Of a stretch of 64,000 nt of DNA, positions 3,603-62,715 are shown piece by piece. The position numbers and the translations under genes are program-made. A model generated the notes under the pieces. The model had not been told where the DNA came from. It was given only the letters and a program-made list of their open reading frames with translations, and made no database searches. The DNA lies in IMG/VR virus record IMGVR_UViG_3300031521_000018, positions 1 through 64,000 of that record, one strand, 5' to 3'. Positions within the stretch are counted from its first letter, which is position 1, and every line of letters starts with the position of its first letter. This DNA comes from a virus.

Positions 3603-6600
3603 TTATAATAATGTTAAACTATACACCAAACTCAATGATTGGTCTGTGTATTTATTTAGTATTATTTCCGAATATCCATTTCCGAAGTCTGTTTTTACAG
3701 AATAATCTGTAATTTGTTTGTAATTTGTTTTAGTTAAGTATGATTCAGTTACTTGACTTATATTTACATTGCTTAAACTATCATTCCTTGTGTAAATTTT
3801 TATCAAATTTATAGAATATAATTTAAATATTTTATCAATAATCAATCCAATAAATTTTTCAAAGTCTGAATTTATTATTGAATATTTGAATATTTGGTCT
3901 TTAATTGTGTCATACATTATATCTTTTAACAACATTTTGTAATTTATACGTATGTTTAATTGATTATTAGCTGAATCTTTGGTATAGTACAATGCCGATT
4001 TATCTATTAAATTTGTCTGTGATGAAACACTTTTAAATGATGAAGAAAATATATTAAACGGCAATTTTATATTTACAGAATTTAAAAACGTTTTTAAAAA
4101 ATCAAATTCCTGTGAACTTGAAATATTAACAAATTTGGATGTATATTGGTTGTCGTAAAGTGTATATTGGTTATCAAATATATTTTTGAATATGTCTATT
4201 TTGAATCTGTCTATGGAATTGTTTAACTCATATTTTTGATTATTTTTGATATTGTATCCATACAGAACATAAGGAAGGTATTTGTCGATTTCAAGGTTGG
4301 ATTCTAGCAAAGTTTGTGAATTACCAATCCTGCTAATATCATTAGAATAAACCGTTGGCTCAAGAATAATCTTGGAATCCAATTTTAATTTTGATTCCTC
4401 TATAGTTTCGCTAGCTATTTTTGTTTTGAAATTTATAACATCAAAAGTTTCGGGGTAATATTCACCCGATAACCTTACAAAATCATATTTATTTTGCTCT
4501 AATTTGTTAGATTTGGTATTGTAAGTTACAGGTAAGTTAAGCTTTGTATGTTGAATCATAAGCAGCTTATTTCCGTCATTAATTACCGAATTATTGATAT
4601 AGCTTTTATTTTCTTGTATTAATCTAAAAAACGATGATGCTGTTAACAGTTGCTGTAATTTTAAATAAATGTCCTGACCACCGCCTATAATCAAGATATA
4701 AGCCAAATCTGTAATATATTGATTATCCATTCCAAACACCACACCTGTACCCTTGGCATATGAATTAACAAATTCTGATAGCTGATATTTATAATCCTCT
4801 AACCTTGTTATTATATATTCCAAATTGTTTATGTGTATATCATTCATAGTCATCATATTCTCAAGTACTGATCTTGCTATTGGTGCTATATATTGTTTAC
4901 TTTCATCTATTAATATTGATAAGTCTTGTGTTGACTGTAAGATGTTTCTAAGGTACAGTGGGTCTGTTTTTAATTTCAAAGCTAATTCTTGTTCATCAAA
5001 GTTAAAAATAGACCTTAATTTATACCCAAATGTTTTTGTCACAGCCACATTATCAATGAATATATTGTATGGTAATGTTGATAAGTCAAACGGTTGACCA
5101 TAAGCTTTGTTTGTCTGATCATTTATTATATTATTACCAACAACTGAAACCAAAGACCGCATCATGTACATATAAACATAATCGGGTCTTTGGTTACCAT
5201 TCTTATCTATAATTTTGTAGTCATTGATTTCAATATTTATACACATACATATTGATTTGTATGTGTGATTGGTGGATATATCAACGTCAAGAAGTCCATT
5301 ACCAACAGATTTTTTTACGTTTAATATAACAGCAAATTTATAATCTGAGTAATCAATACCATCTGAAACAATCCTATATTTTATGCCGTTAAAAAACACA
5401 TCATATTGATTATCATATGTTTTATTAAAAGTCGACCATCTTTGTTGATAATTAACATCATACATTACATCATCAATATTGGCGGAATATACAGTGAAAT
5501 ATCTAGTGAAATAGTCAACAGTATTTACCTTGTGTAGTTCTGATTCAAAATATTTGTCGAAATAGTATTTGTTATTCTTTATATCATCAGGCAAAATTAA
5601 TTCAGGATATGATGAAAGATAAAACCACTCATTTGTAAAATATTCCTGATTTGGTGCGAACATATCTATTGCAGGACATTGATTTGTTTCACCAAATGCG
5701 GGTGATATATTAAGCCTATAATTATCGCCTCTTACATCCTTTTCTTTCATAGACCATCTATTTATAATAAAAGGTAATAATTTGCTATCCTCATATATTT
5801 TATTAACGTCTTCTTTCATTCGTTTGTATTCGTTTATATAATCGTATGAAAGAATATACTTTATTTTATCCTCTTGAACAACAACAGTTTGTATAAAATT
5901 TTGTGCACGTTTAACGTAATAATCGTCATACGAACCACCATTGACTACATCATATGGTATCCATTGATTTGTTGATTCATTAATTACATCATCAGCCAAA
6001 GTAAGAGTCCTAACAACATAGGGAACGGATGTAGCATCCTTATAAACATTGAGTTGGTATGAAAACTTAGTTGAATCGTTATTAAGACCATAAAACCCCG
6101 AAAAATTATAAATTTCAGAATCATTATAATATTTCTTATTAACTATAATTGGAATACCATCTACAACAGAAAAATGTGATTCCTCGGCTGTGAATTCAAC
6201 AAATATTCCTGATGTACTTGTATCGGCTTGATACACAATACCGTTATGATTTATGCTAGTTGGAAGTGTATTATATGAGAATAGGTAATATGTTTCTCCA
6301 ATAACAAGTTGACCATCAACAACATTAAAGTATTTGTTATATTCATTCAAATGTGGATTTTTATACTGTTCCTCAAAATCAGTAAAAAATGATTTTATTG
6401 GTAACATATCAAAAGCACACCTTTTGAAAATTTTATCTTTATATAAGTACACCTTATTTTTTTGTGTAAACAGAACTTCATCTGATGTATTACTTACCGT
6501 AACTGATATGTAATTATCCAATTCAAGGAAATTTATAATTTCATTATCATCAGATGAATTAACAAAATCCAAATCAAGGAAATTTGAAAAATTTTTTATC

Positions 6601-10911: not shown

Positions 10912-13900
10912 TTACATGTATTGTAAAATTATGTTCTTTGGGAATATTTCTTTAACCTCTGCATCAATAAATTTTTGTATATTATCCTCAAAAGTATCTG
11001 CATCAGATTCATCCTCTGTTTCAGTATAACCTTTGATAAAACTGTTTACATAATCAATATCCATGTATTCATCAAAAATTTCTTGAGGCAAATCATATCC
11101 ACCTCTAACAATAATAGCCTGAACTTTATAAATCTTATCATCTTGATCACTTTCATTTACTTTACCTTTAAGACCAATGATCTTTTTAAATTCATCTATT
11201 GATAAATCTGTCATAAGATTAAAAGTACTATCGGCATTGCGTTTTAGAGTTGCAATATGATTATCTTTCCCAACATAAACCAATACCAAATTTTCAGTAT
11301 CAATTGTGTTAAAATTATTACCACCGCTTGACTGTAATTTTAACACAATTGAATTATCAACTTGTGTATATTCATGGCTAAATTCTTTAGATTTTGATAT
11401 TTGATTTGCCACATTATCTCCAAAGTCCTCATTTACTGATTTAGTAGGGTCAACACCCATTTGATTGGCATAATCATCAATTTCTTCCATTGAAATCCAT
11501 TCAGGTTTTTCAGTAAATGAATCCCATAATGCTTTCATAAGTTCTATTTGCTTGGCTTCATCATCCATAAACAAATGTTTACTACTCTTACCACCATTAC
11601 CTAAGTAATATTCACAATCTGATTGCATTCTTCCAAGTAACTGATATTTGAATTTATCATCCTTTTGAGTATATTCTGATAAGTAATTATCACCAACATT
11701 TTCATTAATTGGTTTTGAGCTATCAATCAAAGATTTTAATTTGTCTAAGTCCCAATACCATGTATCATTTATAGATGGTGCTTTATAAACTTTTGTTTCC
11801 TGTCCACCACTTGTATCAACTTTACTATGGATTGTTACACCGTTATACTCAGTATTATCATCTTCATTTACAGCATTTGGATTATTCAAAGCATTTAACA
11901 TACTTTTTGCCGTAACCAAGTCATTACCATCATAAACAATTTGATCATCAATAGGTTTTGTTGTATCTTTGACAATAAAATTTCCGTTTTCTGCATTTTC
12001 CATAGTTCCACGAGAATTATTATCATTACCCTCGTTGACTGAATCTAATTTGAGATACTGTTTAAGTTTATCCTTTTTAATAGTTATTGTTTTATCATAA
12101 TCATCAGTTGCTTTACTAGTTCCATTTTTGAATCCGATGGTAAAATCATCACCATCTTCTTTAAGTATAGTTCCTGTTCCATTCATTACACCTGACAAAG
12201 CTTGTGCTTTAAATGAATCACCAACAGCACATTCATTAATTTTTCCTTTTTTGTCAACATTATCAAGATTTGTAATTTTTACTGATTTTTCATCAAGCTC
12301 AACCTGAAATACTGTACCAAATTTTTCATTAGTATCACGACCTGCAGTTTTTAAAAATAATTGTTTGCCCTCACCACCAACAGGTGCATCAAGGTCAAAT
12401 TTCAAGACACCTTTACCATCCCAATCATTTATTTTTGTCCTAGCAAGTTCTGTTGCAGCGGTATAAGATTCAGAATTTGTATCCTCATTAACAGCATTGT
12501 CTTTCATAAATGTTGAATTCCATTTATTTGCAAATTCATCGGCAGCAGCAACAGCCTCAGCAACTGTATTAAACTGTTTATCTTTTAAACCTCTGAGTTC
12601 ATTTCTGTACTCATTAAACTCTTGAGAAGTTATCGCTGAATGCACGCTACCTTCATCAACTAAGAATTTACTTGTATTTTTATCAAGTACTATAGACATT
12701 GACTTGATTCTAAGATTAGAATCTTTCAAGGTTTTATCATTACCATAAACTTTGTGATAATTTCCTTCAACACCTTTATTGTCTTCAACGCCATCAATAG
12801 TGTGTTTATAAGATTCTTCCAAACCATTACCATAACTTGTAAGTTCTTGTAATTTTGCTTCATAATCGTTAGAATCCTCATTTATTGATTCAACCGATTT
12901 ATAGATTTCAAAAGTTTTGCTTATAATATCCTTATAACCCTGTTCATCGATCATTGAATCATCTTCACCAATATAACCAAGCTCTTTAGCTATCCAAGTT
13001 GAAACCCTATCAATAACACCCGCCTTTTTATCAGCGTTTTGTAGTTCAGCACCCACTTTGGTAATAAGTTCATCTGAAAGTTCAGGAAATTGACCCTTTA
13101 TTTTATCAATTAATGAATTATCTGATTCATTTACAGAATCATTGTACCAAGCAAATGATATGTCATACCAAAATTCACCATCAATATCAGATTTAAATCT
13201 TTTAACATCCTTATTAAACTCGTATCTATCAACCAAATTATATGAAATATTATTACATTTTAGATATAAATCAGTTTCATGATGGTCGATTTCTTCGGGC
13301 AACATATGTGCTTTAGCTTGTGCAAAAATATCAAAATCATTACTTTCATTTACACTTTCAGCCACATAATCAACAATACCAGATTCAAAATATTTTACAG
13401 CTAAATCATTAAGATTGTTTTGTAAATCTTTATCAATACCATCTTTTCCATCAGGAGAATTTAATTCTATATACACACCATATCCTGATATTGTATCTGA
13501 ATCTTTTGAAATAGTCAAATCAATTGTTCCGCCATTATAAAAGAAATCATTTAAACGGACTTCATCAAATTTATCCTTATTTTTTTCAACAAAATTTGAG
13601 TCAAAGTTATCATAAAGTTCCTGTGTGGAACTTAAGTCGAAAGTTCCAATATTTAAATCCAAGTCAGAACTTTCGTTTATTTTCCTTGACAAGTGATAAT
13701 ATTTTTGCTCAAGTGCTGAAAATTCCTCGTTGATTTTTTGACACGAAAGCTTACCTTTACCATTTTCAAAAACTTTTCTAGCCTCAACAAACAATCGGTT
13801 GTTTTCCTTACGATAATTTTCAAGTACAGCAAATATTTCGCTTTTTTTGCTAACTATATTTTTTAAGGTTACGAATTCAAAATTATTATGAGCTATATGA

Positions 13901-18011: not shown

Positions 18012-18848
18012 CTATCTATTGAATACTGATGTTAGATCACCTGAATCATCGGATTGTAAAGGCACTTTACCCATTATATCAGATATAGCATTCCAAAATT
18101 CTTGTGGGCAATATTGCGAAATATCATCCACAAGCTCTTGAAATTCAGGTAATTTTCTTACGTGTGTGATATTTACAGAGGTCATTATACAATCATCATT
18201 ACCAATCATTGCACAATATCCACCAAAATTACCATTCTTTAATTTTTTTCGTGCAAATGATAATGCCTCCTCTATTGTTATAAATTCTGTTAATACCAAT
18301 TGTGTCTGCCTCATTTGGGTTTTCATCATTGTAGTACCCAAGTTTTTAGTATGGTCATTTTGCTTGATTCCAACACGCACAGCATAAGATTGATCATCTT
18401 TCATATTGTATGCAAATTGTAAGAAAAGTAAATCGCCATCTATTTCATTCTCCTCACCATATAATTTAATAACAATTTCCCTAAAATAGTTTCCATCATA
18501 ATTATTTTCAAGACATGTCCTTACGTTATCGGGTATAAAAAGCTCAACTAAGCAATGATAATACCATTTAGCTAATTCGGGTACTATTACTTGATTTGAC
18601 CTGAACATAGCAACCTGAACCATTTTAAAAAAAGAATATTCATCTTCTATAATTGATACTTTTCCTATTTCATCAATGGTCATAGGTAGAACCTCAAAGA
18701 TGTTTATGACTGAATAATCACCACCCGTTCCCTCAGCCAAATCTATTGAGTGTACAAATCTCCTACGTTCATCTTTAAATCTTGATATGTCAATAGATGA
18801 ATGAACTAAGAAATACATATCAAGATCAAGCAGTGTTTCAGAATACAT
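18012..18848 (-). CDS. Terminase large subunit, nuclease domain only
   Basis: These 278 residues align by eye with the C-terminal half of T4 gp17. SIDLAEGTGGDYSVINIFEV corresponds to gp17 LDCSEGRGQDYHALHIIDV and holds the first catalytic Asp. CLENNYDG matches IELNSTG (catalytic Glu). IKQNDHTKNLGTTMMK matches the MKQTKRTKAVGCSTLK region, and GNDDCIM matches YHDDLVM (last Asp). The protein begins at the linker that joins ATPase and nuclease in gp17. The ATPase part is encoded 21 kb away (39500-40588), so the terminase works as separate polypeptides. No intein sequence is visible at either end. It cleaves concatemeric DNA during packaging. Confidence 0.85.
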   Translation of the reverse strand: MYSETLLDLDMYFLVHSSIDISRFKDERRRFVHSIDLAEGTGGDYSVINIFEVLPMTIDEIGKVSIIEDEYSFFKMVQVAMFRSNQVIVPELAKWYYHCLVELFIPDNVRTCLENNYDGNYFREIVIKLYGEENEIDGDLLFLQFAYNMKDDQSYAVRVGIKQNDHTKNLGTTMMKTQMRQTQLVLTEFITIEEALSFARKKLKNGNFGGYCAMIGNDDCIMTSVNITHVRKLPEFQELVDDISQYCPQEFWNAISDIMGKVPLQSDDSGDLTSVFNR

Positions 18849-23064: not shown

Positions 23065-23107
23065 AACATAGATAAAGCCAAGGGTTACCCTTGGCTTTAT
23101 CTATGTT
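23065..23107 (-). terminator. Strong terminator hairpin
   Basis: This is a perfect 20-bp stem (23065-23084 and 23088-23107) with a 3-base loop. It lies 15 bp after the stop of the repeat-containing gene and before the MazG-like ATG at 23020. It separates these two minus-strand units. Confidence 0.85.
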
Positions 23108-31974: not shown

Positions 31975-33606
31975 ATGGCTGTTAATAATGATAATTTAGA
32001 AAATAAATTAATACCTAAAAACAAGGTAAAAGCTATAGATTCTATAAATGAACTTACTAATAATTTAATTATTAGATTCAAAAACAACCTTAGGTCTTTC
32101 ACATATGCCTCAAGTTTTGGTCAAATAATACTTGTATTACAAAATCACGTTAATAATATTTTCTATTATATTAACGACTCAGCAACTCAATCTAATTTTA
32201 AAACAGCTAACAGAATACATTCTGTACATGGTCTTGCAAGATTACAAGGTCACAACGCTTTTAGAGGTTCATCGGCAAGGGGAAGTATTATACTTATTAG
32301 AAACCCATCAATAAATATAAGTATAGCGGGTGACAAAATACACATACCTAATTACACCAAAATACAGAATTTGGAAAATGGTTTACAGTATACAATATTA
32401 ATGAATACTGATTTCAAAACATTCAATATAAATGATACAAAGGAATTACAAATACCTATTGTAGAAGGTGTTGTAGAAACTCATACATTCACAGGAACAG
32501 GTACAAATATACAAACATATGAATTACCAAACTTACAATTTCAAATGTATGATGATTCATATGTTGAGGTAATGGTTAACGGTAAAATATATGAGCAGTA
32601 TATTTCGCTGTATGATATACCATATGGTGCTGCAGGGTGTTTAGTTAAAACGGGTATGACATCAGGTGTTGATATAATATTTGGGAAAAACAATTTCCAA
32701 GAGATTCCACCTTTAGGCTCTGAAATAAAAGTAAATGTACTTACAACCAATGGAAGTATAGGTAATTTATTCAATTCAAAAACAACTTGGAAACTTAATG
32801 ATACATGCTTTGATGGTAATGGTAATGAATTAAGTCTTGATGATATTTTTTATGTAAACAACAATATATTACCTTGCCTTGGTGCTGATTCAGAGGATAT
32901 AAATTTAACAAAAATTTTAGCACCAAACATTTCAAGAAGTTTTATATTACATGACAAAAAGTCAATTAATTATTTCTTTAAAAAGATGAATTATTTTTCG
33001 TCAATCAACATATTTAAGAAAACTATTGATAATATAAACGAATATTCTGTGTACTTAGTACCATCTTTGATTAACAGGTTAATAACAGGTGAAAATTATT
33101 TTACTATATCTTTAGATAAATTTTTATTATTGGATTATGAAAAAGCTCAAATTTTATCACAGATACAGGAGTCAGGTATTGAATCAGCCAATATAACTAT
33201 GGAACTTATAAATCCTCTTATACAGAAGTTCGCAATGATGATTTACTGTGAATTGGAGGATGGTGTGGATGCCGATATATCAAATATGATGATTACAAGA
33301 CAAAATATTTTAAATATTATAAGTAATTATTTGTTGAATAGAGAATCAACATCAGACATAATACATTCTGAAATAGTGTCACTTATTAACGGATTAGATA
33401 ATATTTATTCCGTTAAGGTTATATTATTATCTCAAGATAGCAAATACATAGATTCTTTAGGAAATATAAAAGTCGATAATAATCAAATAGCAGTTATAAG
33501 AGGTGATTGGACTGACAGCAATAATGTATATTTTAAGGATGAATTTGACCCATTGAATGATTATATGGGGTGTGTAAACATAAATATAGAGAGATTCCAC
33601 TCATAA
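31975..33606 (+). CDS. Baseplate wedge protein, gp6/gpJ-like
   Basis: At 543 residues, the N-terminal half follows the baseplate-J/gp6 layout. Helical residues 1-80 (FASQ-like region SFTYASSFGQIILVLQNHVN) lead to TANRIHSVHGLARLQGHNA, then a beta domain with RGSSARGSIILIRNP ... GDKIHIPNYTKIQN. These proteins form the wedge ring of the contractile-tail baseplate. The C-terminal part is helical and lacks obvious motifs. It ends 5 bp before a bidirectional terminator. Confidence 0.6.
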   Translation: MAVNNDNLENKLIPKNKVKAIDSINELTNNLIIRFKNNLRSFTYASSFGQIILVLQNHVNNIFYYINDSATQSNFKTANRIHSVHGLARLQGHNAFRGSSARGSIILIRNPSINISIAGDKIHIPNYTKIQNLENGLQYTILMNTDFKTFNINDTKELQIPIVEGVVETHTFTGTGTNIQTYELPNLQFQMYDDSYVEVMVNGKIYEQYISLYDIPYGAAGCLVKTGMTSGVDIIFGKNNFQEIPPLGSEIKVNVLTTNGSIGNLFNSKTTWKLNDTCFDGNGNELSLDDIFYVNNNILPCLGADSEDINLTKILAPNISRSFILHDKKSINYFFKKMNYFSSINIFKKTIDNINEYSVYLVPSLINRLITGENYFTISLDKFLLLDYEKAQILSQIQESGIESANITMELINPLIQKFAMMIYCELEDGVDADISNMMITRQNILNIISNYLLNRESTSDIIHSEIVSLINGLDNIYSVKVILLSQDSKYIDSLGNIKVDNNQIAVIRGDWTDSNNVYFKDEFDPLNDYMGCVNINIERFHS

Positions 33607-33610
33607 AAAC

Positions 33611-33645
33611 AAAATAGTCCGAGAAACAATTTCTCGGACTATTTT
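33611..33645. terminator. Bidirectional terminator
   Basis: A perfect 16-bp stem (33611-33626 and 33630-33645) with a 3-base loop is flanked by A-runs on the left and T-runs on the right. It lies between the convergent baseplate gene (plus) and SSB gene (minus), and should stop transcription in both directions. Confidence 0.9.
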
Positions 33646-33672
33646 TAATTTATTTGCTTTTGGTATTAGTTA

Positions 33673-39499: not shown

Positions 39500-40588
39500 T
39501 CAAGATGCATTGGAAAGCCGATTATTTGTAAAGTGTGATTGATATGATTTTAATGACTTCATAACATCAGATGGCAAAAGTAATTGTTGATTGGTATCAA
39601 AACTATTTCCATACTCTTGCTCAAATGCTTCCTCAGAACCTATGTTGGCTGTTTCCTCTTGTTTCCATTTATCATCTCTACCCTCAACATCAAACCAATC
39701 TACACGTATAGGATTGAAATAATTTTTACCAAGTAATCCATCAGTGTACAATTGCCAAAATAAATTTCTGCCTCTTGCTGTAGATGTAATTATCATCTTT
39801 GCTGTTTTTGACGATGACATTGTTGGAAAAATAGTTTGATAGAATATTTTTAATACCTGTGGGTCAATCAGTGCAAATTCATCACAGTAAAGTATACCGT
39901 TAACAGTAAGACCTGCACCCGCTTTCTCTGTTGCTGTTTCACCTTTTATTGAGCAGCCATTATCATATATTTTCCTCTTTTGATTATCAACACATATACC
40001 AAGTTTCATATAAAATGGCAAATTGTCGTATATTGTATCTATCTTTTCTATAAGTTCTTTAACTTTATCATCGGTTGCCGAAGTACATGCGACACCTTTA
40101 TCATAATTGGTAAGTAAATACCACATTATAAAAATACCTGATGTAATAGAATTATGGCTCAGTATATCATTAGAAAAATAACTCATTTCTCCTGAACCAA
40201 CTGTAACATCAAAAGTAAATTGTCTAGGTAATTTTTCTACTTTTACAACACGTGATATTCCTTGTTTTGTGATTAAAAATGTCTGCCTTGTTACGTTATT
40301 AGCATCAATTATCTGCATATTTGAATCATAAAACAAATGATTTACAGAACACTTTACAAAGCATCCATTTTTAGTAGTTATTTTAAGTATTTCGGCATTT
40401 GTCTTAATATGGACAGCCGATAAATATTGACCACCCTTTATACCGTTTACCAATAAATTATCTTTAGGAATAGAGGAACTAATTATACAGTCTTCCTCAA
40501 CTTTATATTTCCACAGATTATAATTTAAAAATATAACTATTTTTAATATAGCATTTAAAGTTTTTTCCAAAATTTCTAATAGTCCCAT
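39500..40588 (-). CDS. Terminase large subunit ATPase fragment with N-terminal C-intein
   Basis: These are 362 residues from the ATG at 40588; longer upstream starts would overlap the previous gene. Residues 1-146 are the C-terminal piece of a split intein: block B ITTKNGCFVKCSVNH (His84), block F FTFDVTVG, block G ILSHN (His145, Asn146). The extein begins with Ser147 of ITSGIFIMWYLL, which is the Ser of gp17's Walker A GKS. Walker B (ILYCDEFA) and motif III (ITSTARG) follow, ending GNSFDTNQQLLL. Upstream terminase residues, the Q motif and Walker A Lys must come from another gene ending in an N-intein. The nuclease domain is separate at 18012. Confidence 0.88.
   Translation of the reverse strand: MGLLEILEKTLNAILKIVIFLNYNLWKYKVEEDCIISSSIPKDNLLVNGIKGGQYLSAVHIKTNAEILKITTKNGCFVKCSVNHLFYDSNMQIIDANNVTRQTFLITKQGISRVVKVEKLPRQFTFDVTVGSGEMSYFSNDILSHNSITSGIFIMWYLLTNYDKGVACTSATDDKVKELIEKIDTIYDNLPFYMKLGICVDNQKRKIYDNGCSIKGETATEKAGAGLTVNGILYCDEFALIDPQVLKIFYQTIFPTMSSSKTAKMIITSTARGRNLFWQLYTDGLLGKNYFNPIRVDWFDVEGRDDKWKQEETANIGSEEAFEQEYGNSFDTNQQLLLPSDVMKSLKSYQSHFTNNRLSNAS
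40151..40588 (-). other. C-intein (atypically split, terminase GK|S site)
   Basis: This is codons 1-146 of the terminase ATPase fragment. Block A (Cys1) is absent while block B is present, so the split lies between blocks A and B. That is the architecture known from the AceL-TerL intein, also inserted in a phage terminase. A hydrophobic amphipathic leader (residues 1-33) precedes the intein fold and may help it bind the matching N-intein. Splicing would occur at Asn146/Ser147 (codon at 40150-40148). Confidence 0.82.
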
Positions 40589-42526: not shown

Positions 42527-42551
42527 AGCAATTTTTTATTATTTAAATATA

Positions 42552-42588
42552 TTTGAAGAGGATAATTATAACAATTATCCTCTTCAAA
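42552..42588 (-). terminator. Terminator after purZ-like gene
   Basis: A perfect 16-bp stem (42552-42567 and 42573-42588) with a 5-base loop lies 17 bp past the stop of the PurZ-like gene and upstream of the gp15-like ATG. It separates the two minus-strand units. Confidence 0.88.
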
Positions 42589-42605
42589 AGTATAATCAAT
42601 AGGTA

Positions 42606-51262: not shown

Positions 51263-51290
51263 TTCCATTGTTTCACGTGAAACAATGGAA
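51263..51290. promoter_or_regulatory. parS-like centromere site in 28-bp palindrome
   Basis: The central 16 bp (51269-51284) read TGTTTCACGTGAAACA, the canonical bacterial ParB-binding parS sequence, inside a perfect 28-bp palindrome. It lies 27 bp after the stop of the 51317 gene, so the palindrome could also act as a minus-strand terminator. The exact agreement with parS argues for ParB recruitment. No parA/parB gene is visible in this window. Confidence 0.65.
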
Positions 51291-58802: not shown

Positions 58803-58956
58803 AAAACTACTTAAATTTGATAATGATTTGGAAATTGATTTTAGCTTTAGGAATATGTCTATTCCTAAAGCTAAAATTTCCAACATTATACCTGTGAAAA
58901 AAACCACCATTATTGATAATAAAAATAAAAACACCAAAAATGTCGGAATCTTCTGA
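58789..58956 (+). CDS. Small basic ORF bridging gp46- and UvsY-like genes
   Basis: These are 55 residues (MKKVKKLLKFDNDLEIDF ... NKNTKNVGIF), overlapping the end of the gp46-like gene by 14 bp and the start of the next by 17 bp. Such overlaps on both sides suggest a real, coupled small gene. However, an 18-bp hairpin lies within it, so the frame could also be fortuitous. Confidence 0.4.
   Translation: MKKVKKLLKFDNDLEIDFSFRNMSIPKAKISNIIPVKKTTIIDNKNKNTKNVGIF
58838..58877 (+). terminator. 18-bp hairpin within small ORF
   Basis: A perfect 18-bp stem (58838-58855 and 58860-58877) with a 4-base loop lies 35 bp after the gp46-like stop. It is as strong as the other terminators here but lies inside a 55-codon ORF and 62 bp before the UvsY-like ATG. 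It may attenuate transcription or protect the mRNA 3' end. Confidence 0.6.
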
Positions 58957-61595: not shown

Positions 61596-62075
61596 ATGAT
61601 GTACTTCAAAGCACTGATTAAAGAAGAAACCAAAACGGACTTCGGAATAGTACCAAAGACACAAGAATATTATATTCCCGCACTAAATTATACAGATGCT
61701 GAAAATATATTCAAGGAACTTATAAATCTTGATATGATATGTAAAGAATGTATATCTATTGAAAACAGAAAGCAACTTGAATTCAAAAAGATATTGAAGG
61801 AAGAAATTGAGGGTGTTGTTGGTGATGATAGCGATTTTTATTACAAAGTAGCCGTTAAATTTAGTACGGGTGAAGGTAATAAAACAGCAACCAACAATTT
61901 TTATGTTTCAAATGATAGCTGTGATGCATATAAAAAAATATCTGAATATATTAGCAAGGTAGGATATATGTCTGATAGTGAGATAATATCAATAGTTAAA
62001 AAGGATAGAATTAAAACAATCTTCGAAATGACTAACGAGGATTATAAATTGGCGTATGATAATATTGTTAAATAA
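61596..62075 (+). CDS. DUF4494-like protein
   Basis: These 159 residues start MMYFKALIKEETKTDFG and continue TQEYYIPALNYTDAENIFKE. This resembles the Bacteroidetes DUF4494 family, whose members open with a W/Y-F-x-x-K-V strand and a V-x-A-L-S-F-T-E-A-E motif. A second similar strand-helix unit follows (FYYKVAVKFSTGEGNK ... YVSNDSCDAYKKI). Its function is unknown. The family is largely confined to Bacteroidetes and their phages and plasmids, so it is one of the host clues. It is followed by a terminator hairpin. Confidence 0.6.
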   Translation: MMYFKALIKEETKTDFGIVPKTQEYYIPALNYTDAENIFKELINLDMICKECISIENRKQLEFKKILKEEIEGVVGDDSDFYYKVAVKFSTGEGNKTATNNFYVSNDSCDAYKKISEYISKVGYMSDSEIISIVKKDRIKTIFEMTNEDYKLAYDNIVK

Positions 62076-62093
62076 TTTAAAAATATGTGTATA

Positions 62094-62124
62094 TAAGACC
62101 TCTATTAAATTAATAGAGGTCTTA
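62094..62124 (+). terminator. Terminator before IntC-IntN gene
   Basis: A perfect 14-bp stem (62094-62107 and 62111-62124) with a 3-base loop follows the DUF4494-like gene and ends 9 bp before the ATG at 62134. It should isolate the intein gene from upstream transcription, or control it. Confidence 0.8.
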
Positions 62125-62133
62125 GAATATTTT

Positions 62134-62541
62134 ATGATTTATAAGGAATATAGGTCTTATAACATAAGTAAATTTGGGTATTTTGTAAACATAGATGAAG
62201 ATCAAGAGTCAAAAATAACCCATGTTCATTACACAGGTATAAAAAGATTATACAAACTTGAAACATATGGTGGTAAAACCTTATATGCCACCCAAGACCA
62301 TATACTTCCTATATATCAGGTTACAGAGGTGTTAAAAGGAAATGATAAATTTTTTTCTATTGCTGATCTCAAACACAAAATTGATATGCATACAGGCAGC
62401 AAATATAGTGTTATAAATTCAGGTGGATTCTGTGAGGAGGTAAAATCGATAGAAAAAATATTGGGATTTCATAGAGTATTTGACTTAACTATAAGTAACA
62501 AAATGCATGTATTCGTTGCTAATGGTATCAAAGTGCATAAC
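62134..62541 (+). other. C-intein region of the intein-only protein
   Basis: Codons 1-136, block B through block G, ending His135-Asn136. There is no block A, so it needs a separate N-intein, which is not found elsewhere in this window. Confidence 0.8.
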
Positions 62542-62715
62542 TGTGTAACTGCCGATACTGGTATAGAAATACTCAACAAAGAAACCTCAGAATTCAATCA
62601 CATTCCAATATTTGAACTGTATTATTCAAACATAAAATCTAAAAATTGGTTAACCAAATTTGAATATTGGTTAACAAAAACAATTTATAAAATAAATAAT
62701 AAAAACAAAGTGTAA
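62134..62715 (+). CDS. Intein-only protein: C-intein fused to N-intein, zero extein
   Basis: These are 193 residues from the ATG at 62134, just after a terminator; a longer reading from 62056 would overlap that hairpin and the previous gene. Residues 1-136 form a C-intein with block B (KTLYATQDHIL, His56), block F HRVFDLTISNKMHVFVANG and block G KVHN, ending at Asn136. Cys137 is then both the +1 residue and the first residue of an N-intein, CVTADTGIEI ... IPIFELYY. The N-intein resembles AceL-TerL's CVYGDTMVE block A and carries a basic, amphipathic tail. No extein lies between. Both pieces are of the atypical (block A | block B) split type seen in the terminase fragment. Confidence 0.82.
   Translation: MIYKEYRSYNISKFGYFVNIDEDQESKITHVHYTGIKRLYKLETYGGKTLYATQDHILPIYQVTEVLKGNDKFFSIADLKHKIDMHTGSKYSVINSGGFCEEVKSIEKILGFHRVFDLTISNKMHVFVANGIKVHNCVTADTGIEILNKETSEFNHIPIFELYYSNIKSKNWLTKFEYWLTKTIYKINNKNKV
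62542..62712 (+). other. N-intein region of the intein-only protein
   Basis: Codons 137-193. Block A is C-V-T-A-D-T-G-I-E. It is followed by an N-terminal intein helix and a Lys-rich tail (WLTKFEYWLTKTIYKINNK), and no block B. The terminase C-intein at 40151-40588 is the only partner-type fragment visible other than its own neighbour. Confidence 0.75.

Follow-up and report, generated by a model that had tools for sequence, protein, structure and literature searches.

A 193-residue open reading frame at positions 62134-62712(+) of the window (the whole stretch of DNA analysed here, the first 64,000 nucleotides of the IMG/VR record IMGVR_UViG_3300031521_000018) consists of a C-intein half fused directly to an N-intein half, and it probably encodes, with a probability of about 0.7, a zero-extein splicing adaptor for the large terminase subunit (TerL) of the phage itself. 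An IMG/VR phage contig of 125,373 bases, referred to here as G000, contains the window, and the sister phage G001 (167,485 bases), which is syntenic and has many proteins of about 65% identity, also carries the adaptor gene and the genes of two TerL fragments. With somewhat less confidence, we favour the fuller proposal that these genes form a natural, obligatory and consumable zero-extein relay, in which two non-cognate intein halves would join the terminase fragments through two traceless trans-splicing events, in either order, and which would act as a stoichiometric checkpoint on the assembly of the Walker A site.

The adaptor frame is closed by a stop codon at 62713-62715. Its residues 1-136 (62134-62541, +) form the C-intein half (IntC) of what is termed here intein 1, with block B (ATQDH, residues 52-56), block F (VFDLTI) and block G (FVANGIKVHN) leading to the terminal VHN136, and residues 137-193 (62542-62712, +) form the N-intein half (IntN) of intein 2, which reads C137VTADTGIEILNKETSEFNHIPIFELYYSNIKSKNWLTKFEYWLTKTIYKINNKNKV. 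Pfam Intein_splicing matches residues 24-136 (E-value 3e-6) and NCBIfam intein_Cterm matches residues 115-137 with a score over the family cut-off. Together with the open reading frame itself, these matches bear out the original prediction that Asn136 closes a C-intein and Cys137 opens an N-intein with no extein in between, so that Cys137 doubles as the +1 residue of intein 1 and as residue 1 of intein 2. The chain is made of IntC and IntN alone, unlike the halves of AceL-TerL-type inteins, each of which has an extein.

The outer partners were located in terminase genes. A terminase C-intein had been predicted at 40151-40588, and a terminase N-terminal gene with an attached N-intein had been supposed elsewhere in the genome; the former was confirmed, on the (-) strand, and the latter was found in both phages. 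The gene of the C-terminal fragment (TerL-C, 39503-40588, -) opens with the IntC of intein 2 (40151-40588, -), which ends in LSHN and is followed by a +1 Ser and by the second part of the TerL ATPase (39500-40150, -), an extein that runs from SITSGIFIMWYLL to NNRLSNAS and the stop codon, matches the PHROG terminase large subunit (E-value 7e-19), is 88% identical in the sister phage and stops short of the nuclease domain. The gene of the N-terminal fragment (TerL-N) lies beyond the window, at 76990-77493(+) of the contig, and encodes YRFNIFLSSRQSGK followed, up to its stop codon, by CLSGDSIITVNNENITIKDFFENIYYYKINKPLAFLLRIKRFLQRKVNNQKLISTSTI; its extein ends in SSRQSGK and continues into an N-intein of its own, which begins CLSGDS. 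The host of this N-intein is a terminase N-fragment and not a replicative helicase. The junctions, SSRQSGK/C and HN/SITSG, place the insertion after the GK of Walker A in the large terminase. When TerL-N and TerL-C are joined at GK/S, the product aligns unbroken to intact TerL, with 713 phage records covering at least 80% of the query; no residue is therefore missing or left over, and the middle link must contribute nothing.

Scans of both contigs with hidden Markov models (HMMs) and motifs gave convincing intein matches in just three genes per contig (TerL-N, the adaptor and TerL-C), corresponding to two N-halves and two C-halves; no further half was convincingly identified in G000 or G001. 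The IntN halves are 57-58 aa long and have no TxxH, and the IntC halves hold block B (TQDH or SVNH). The layout of a tandem relay is thereby present in both phages, with two split inteins, an IntC-IntN middle piece and both outer partners in the same genome. The nuclease domain is encoded by a separate gene without an intein (18012-18848, -; tblastn and HMM matches with huge-phage TerL nuclease domains, E-value 7e-32), which is 75% identical and syntenic in G001 (151745-152590, +) and intein-free there as well, so that the terminase would be built from four genes, three of them spliced. The phage was classed as T4-like from its portal gene of the Gp20 type and its terminase of a T4-like Pfam family.

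We infer that the halves would pair and splice in the following way, that the order of the steps could vary and that the adaptor would be obligatory. Two different split inteins would lie in tandem at the Walker A site of TerL with zero extein between them: a DnaB-like intein 1, with its N-half (IntN1) on TerL-N and its C-half (IntC1) on the adaptor, and an ordinary TerL intein, intein 2, with its N-half (IntN2) on the adaptor and its C-half (IntC2) on TerL-C. If intein 1 acts first, IntN1 and IntC1 would associate and splice, with Cys137 as the +1 nucleophile, to give TerL-N-GK-Cys137-IntN2, after which the splicing of IntN2 with IntC2 would restore SSRQSGK-SITSG; if intein 2 acts first, it would give IntC1-Ser-TerL-C, from which intein 1 would then remove IntC1. 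Either order would yield the same scarless TerL, and since all adaptor residues would be discarded, one adaptor would be consumed per terminase and the Walker A site would form only once all three proteins had met. The simplest history, and a likely one, is that a second, DnaB-like intein entered a two-piece TerL exactly at its extein/intein junction, with Cys1 of intein 2 serving as the +1 residue of the newcomer; with both inteins split after block A, two genes would have become three, with a middle product free of extein.

The adaptor is conserved and under purifying selection. The protein is 100% identical in two other IMG/VR contigs, and a full-length homologue of 50% identity with the same HN/C junction is found on two contigs of the sister phage. 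All three genes are present in G001, at identities of 50% (adaptor), 68% (TerL-N) and 82% (TerL-C), and residues T53, H56, H135, N136 and C137 are invariant between the two adaptors. Nei-Gojobori ratios of nonsynonymous to synonymous substitution rates (dN/dS) were 0.36 for the adaptor (0.44 for its IntC and 0.19 for its IntN), as against 0.23 and 0.10 for the inteins of TerL-N and TerL-C, respectively, values which are approximate because dS, at about 1.2-1.9, is near saturation. An assembly or frameshift artefact, the alternative that the original prediction had allowed for this gene, is excluded by the identical copies in independent contigs and by the divergent homologue of the sister phage. 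A search of 84,980 genomes of bacteria and archaea yielded no relatives of the adaptor, and one of the INPHARED phages returned only the distant DnaB intein of PaV-LD. DNA patterns of the form HNC...[DN]T, scanned for some codon and residue variants, revealed no other zero-extein adaptors outside this lineage.

The two inteins appear to differ in class. An IMG/VR scan for TerL N-fragments interrupted by a Cys after GK returned 120 loci, mostly two-piece atypically split TerL inteins with an N-half of 44-73 aa ('helix class') or 31-41 aa ('short class'), and 52 non-identical N/C pairs were taken from this panel. Cross-validated class HMMs were used to compare the TerL class with a DnaB class, the latter drawn from 80 loci of DnaB-type inteins in bacterial genomes. 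The best relatives of the adaptor IntN are N-inteins attached directly to the TerL-N of other phages (L082, 43% over 54 aa, E-value 2e-7, and L148, E-value 8e-7, in a panel of about 120), and this half scored 22-28 bits with the TerL-class HMM versus about 0-2 with the DnaB class. The best match of the TerL-N IntN outside its own lineage had an E-value no better than 4e-4 in the same panel. Expressed as DnaB-minus-TerL bits (G000/G001), the values were -26/-23 for the adaptor IntN, -63/-62 for the TerL-C IntC, +6/+8 for the adaptor IntC and, for the TerL-N IntN, -4.0/-3.6 at full length and +8.0/+0.7 over the first 30 residues; the maxima of true TerL-class members were -5.0 for the full IntN, -1.7 for its first 30 residues and -127 for the IntC. 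With the helix-class TerL C-intein HMM, the TerL-C IntC scored 64-69 bits versus 14-17 bits for the adaptor IntC. The best PDB sequence matches were DnaB inteins for the adaptor IntC and gp41-1 for the TerL-C IntC, and a PDB search with the short TerL-N IntN gave no intein match. In a C-half tree built with FastTree, the adaptor IntC fell with DnaB inteins (Shimodaira-Hasegawa support 0.994) and the TerL-C IntC with TerL inteins.

Judged from these comparisons of sequence, the adaptor IntN and the TerL-C IntC are members of the family of ordinary split TerL inteins. The adaptor IntC falls outside the cross-validated range of the TerL class and, by PDB matches and the tree, groups moderately with DnaB-type inteins while scoring far under their true members. 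The TerL-N IntN seems to lie outside the range of the TerL family and towards the DnaB type, and of the four halves it is the one assigned with the least certainty. Mirror-tree matching, which recovered 86% of the known pairs of systems and 79% of those within the helix class, favoured the combination of TerL-N IntN with adaptor IntC and of adaptor IntN with TerL-C IntC in both phages (sums of 0.34 versus -0.01 and of 0.78 versus 0.27). The pairing originally proposed for the four halves is thus favoured by class HMMs, phylogeny, nearest relatives and mirror-tree alike. Net charge complementarity of the helices proved uninformative as a pairing test, with no useful correlation across the panel. 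That a single intein was simply duplicated in tandem was rejected, since the halves differ in class and the adaptor and TerL halves are only 12-14% identical.

Some of the evidence weighs against a relay through the adaptor. At full length, the TerL-N IntN obtains a slightly higher score from the TerL-class HMM than from the DnaB-class one (18.9 versus 14.9 bits, and 11.1 versus 7.5), owing to a TerL-like C-terminal helix which it keeps and through which it might also bind TerL-C directly, and the affinity of the adaptor IntC to the DnaB class is moderate (22 bits, as against 14-17 with the TerL class; in true DnaB members the two scores are at least 70 bits apart). In an AlphaFold2 model of the adaptor, computed from a two-row alignment, the mean confidence (pLDDT) was 52 and the HINT core of the C-half alone was recognisable; its top Foldseek match was the DnaB intein 1mi8, with a template-modelling (TM) score of 0.33. 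Cross-reaction is commonest among atypically split inteins, with a short IntN (PMC7090010), and the IntN of GOS-TerL and that of AceL-TerL are interchangeable (PMC11766414). Because short atypical IntN halves can be exchanged in this manner, the main rival is direct one-step splicing of the TerL-N IntN with the TerL-C IntC, with the adaptor bypassed or acting as a modulator (competitor or buffer). TerL-N does have its own N-intein with Cys1 at the right site, TerL-C has a complete C-intein, and in about 50 other phages a two-piece TerL seems to be spliced by such direct-pair logic. However, IntN1 diverges from every TerL-class N-intein and the orthologous one is the IntN of the adaptor, the mirror-tree correlation between TerL-N and TerL-C is in each phage lower than that of any of the other three combinations, and it would be left unexplained why both catalytic centres of the adaptor are conserved. 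Direct splicing is accordingly regarded as unlikely.

Other explanations carry far less weight. Inteins are selfish elements, and the adaptor might be what is left of an intein that was duplicated or rearranged, without any part in the making of TerL; the original prediction had likewise named a selfish remnant as an alternative. A DUF7487 gene with weak DUF559 nuclease similarity adjoins the adaptor locus in G001 (105342-106319, +), and its G000 homologue lies at a different locus (82251-83252, -); this gene could be a mobile element, possibly an endonuclease tied to intein movement. A remnant is nevertheless highly improbable in view of the full-length identity of 50% between phages whose proteins are about 65% identical, the dN/dS of 0.36, the retention of all splicing residues on both halves and the syntenic position. 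The chance is slimmer still that the adaptor is a self-acting permuted intein of the type used for split-intein circular ligation of peptides and proteins (SICLOPPS), with its halves pairing in cis to make a decoy or a self-cleaving protein: cyclising inteins have the same IntC-IntN order in one chain, and TerL-class models also give the adaptor IntC a weak score, but the two halves fall in different classes by HMM and tree, the mirror-tree prefers the other pairing, and the AlphaFold2 model leaves the IntN undocked, at a low confidence that makes it unreliable on this point. Self-pairing would presumably be sterile, with nothing joined, since one Cys cannot be both residue 1 and the +1 residue of the same intein. 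Equally slim is the prospect that the adaptor joins the halves of another, unrecognised split protein or of a host protein; G000 is a 125-kb fragment from which further genes could be missing, but the syntenic 167-kb sister also offers only the TerL halves as possible partners, and the TerL class is the one to which the adaptor IntN belongs.

The zero-extein adaptor can be set against several known systems. Fractured phage genes with split inteins were reportedly described by Dassa, Gorbalenya and Pietrokovski in 2009; as in those, the break lies at an intein, the pieces are at distant loci and an endonuclease-like gene is nearby in some relatives (LR756500), whereas two split inteins in tandem with a common Cys, instead of one per break, are found here. 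AceL-TerL, GOS-TerL and Cat-TerL are atypically split TerL inteins in two pieces (PMC11766414). Intein 2 is of this kind, with a terminase host, a short IntN lacking block B, a long IntC with block B and presumed trans-splicing, but those inteins have a terminase fragment on each half, whereas an extein-free third protein and a second, different intein occur here at the same junction; the insertion after the GK of Walker A is the site in the panel built here. In engineered systems, two orthogonal split inteins carry out tandem trans-splicing around a middle extein (PMC12707363; also Shi and Muir 2005, as cited in PMC11766414). The IntC-X-IntN middle segment between two outer segments is the same, but the present system is natural and X is of zero length, so that the middle piece would be wholly discarded. 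Intein 1 resembles DnaB-type inteins (Ssp and Npu DnaB, and DnaB of phage PaV-LD) in that its C-half groups with them and the CLSGDS of its N-half resembles CLTGDS, yet it is located in TerL rather than DnaB, is split near its N-terminus and has Cys as its +1 residue.

A contiguous counterpart, with two complete inteins, was observed in a phage tape-measure gene (L052, junction at about 5899-5930, - strand), in which GIKNEN/C leads into an HNH intein that ends in MIVHN, followed by a second intein from CIAWDTRIYD to IIQNN/SIMIDNAG; once joined, its exteins align with a homologue in Pseudomonas phage KT1 that has no interruption (64% over 50 aa). As in the adaptor system, two inteins follow one another with zero extein between them, and the Cys1 of the second is the +1 residue of the first, although there both are contiguous in one polypeptide and the host protein is unrelated. 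The back-to-back inteins of L052 thus support the principle of a zero-extein tandem. Another locus, L041 (about 11809-11840, + strand), carries the same first intein as L052 and then a cut-short, possibly split, second intein. A search of an open-access literature collection found no account of a natural intein adaptor that lacks an extein, nor of inteins that are naturally tandem, nested or back to back; subscription journals were outside the search, and absence there is no proof of novelty. The splicing chemistry is known, and the architecture of the zero-extein adaptor is apparently new.

If the relay through the adaptor is true, it would provide a natural protein that fulfils its function only through its own complete removal by splicing, and it would mean that inteins can invade an extein/intein border and share a catalytic cysteine, which makes intein stacking and addiction logic testable. 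It would also offer a naturally evolved, compatible pair of short-N split inteins for three-piece assembly without a middle extein. With one motor protein made from four genes (three spliced and a separate nuclease), the phage could hold back its packaging ATPase until none of the pieces is lacking.

The start codon of the adaptor is uncertain and may be ATG 62134 or ATG 62056. The latter would add an N-terminal extension (62056-62133, +) with the helix LIEVLEYF, in a frame that is open in both phages, and would overlap the upstream gene and a perfect, terminator-like 14-bp hairpin (62094-62124, +; terminator scan; RNA folding z = -5.6) that lies between the upstream gene and ATG 62134. The sister phage has no ATG at the position equivalent to 62134; it also lacks the hairpin, whose presence in G000, however, favours ATG 62134 as the start there. 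The hairpin ends 10 nt upstream of the adaptor ATG and could also influence adaptor translation. Other long, near-perfect hairpins are found at 23065-23107, 33603-33653, 42547-42593, 58838-58877 and 51263-51290, several of them seemingly intergenic, and the long hairpins are probably terminators.

Immediately upstream of TerL-N, at 75653-76888(+) of G000, lies a partial DNA polymerase B gene (YGDTDS motif; Pfam positions 152-237 of 453), which is separate in G001 too and has no recognisable intein; the DNA polymerase may also be fractured. At least 120 viral loci (L053-L172) have TerL interrupted exactly after the GK of Walker A, mostly by short-N split inteins. A 'huge-phage-like' TerL class carries complementary helices at the split (LTllEKiKikLY on the IntN and liklIElIEyRN on the IntC), which perhaps serve as an association zipper. 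In L069, one terminase has two intein sites, with C-inteins before the continuation of Walker A (SHN/TT) and before Walker B (IISHN/CVMMDEFAH).
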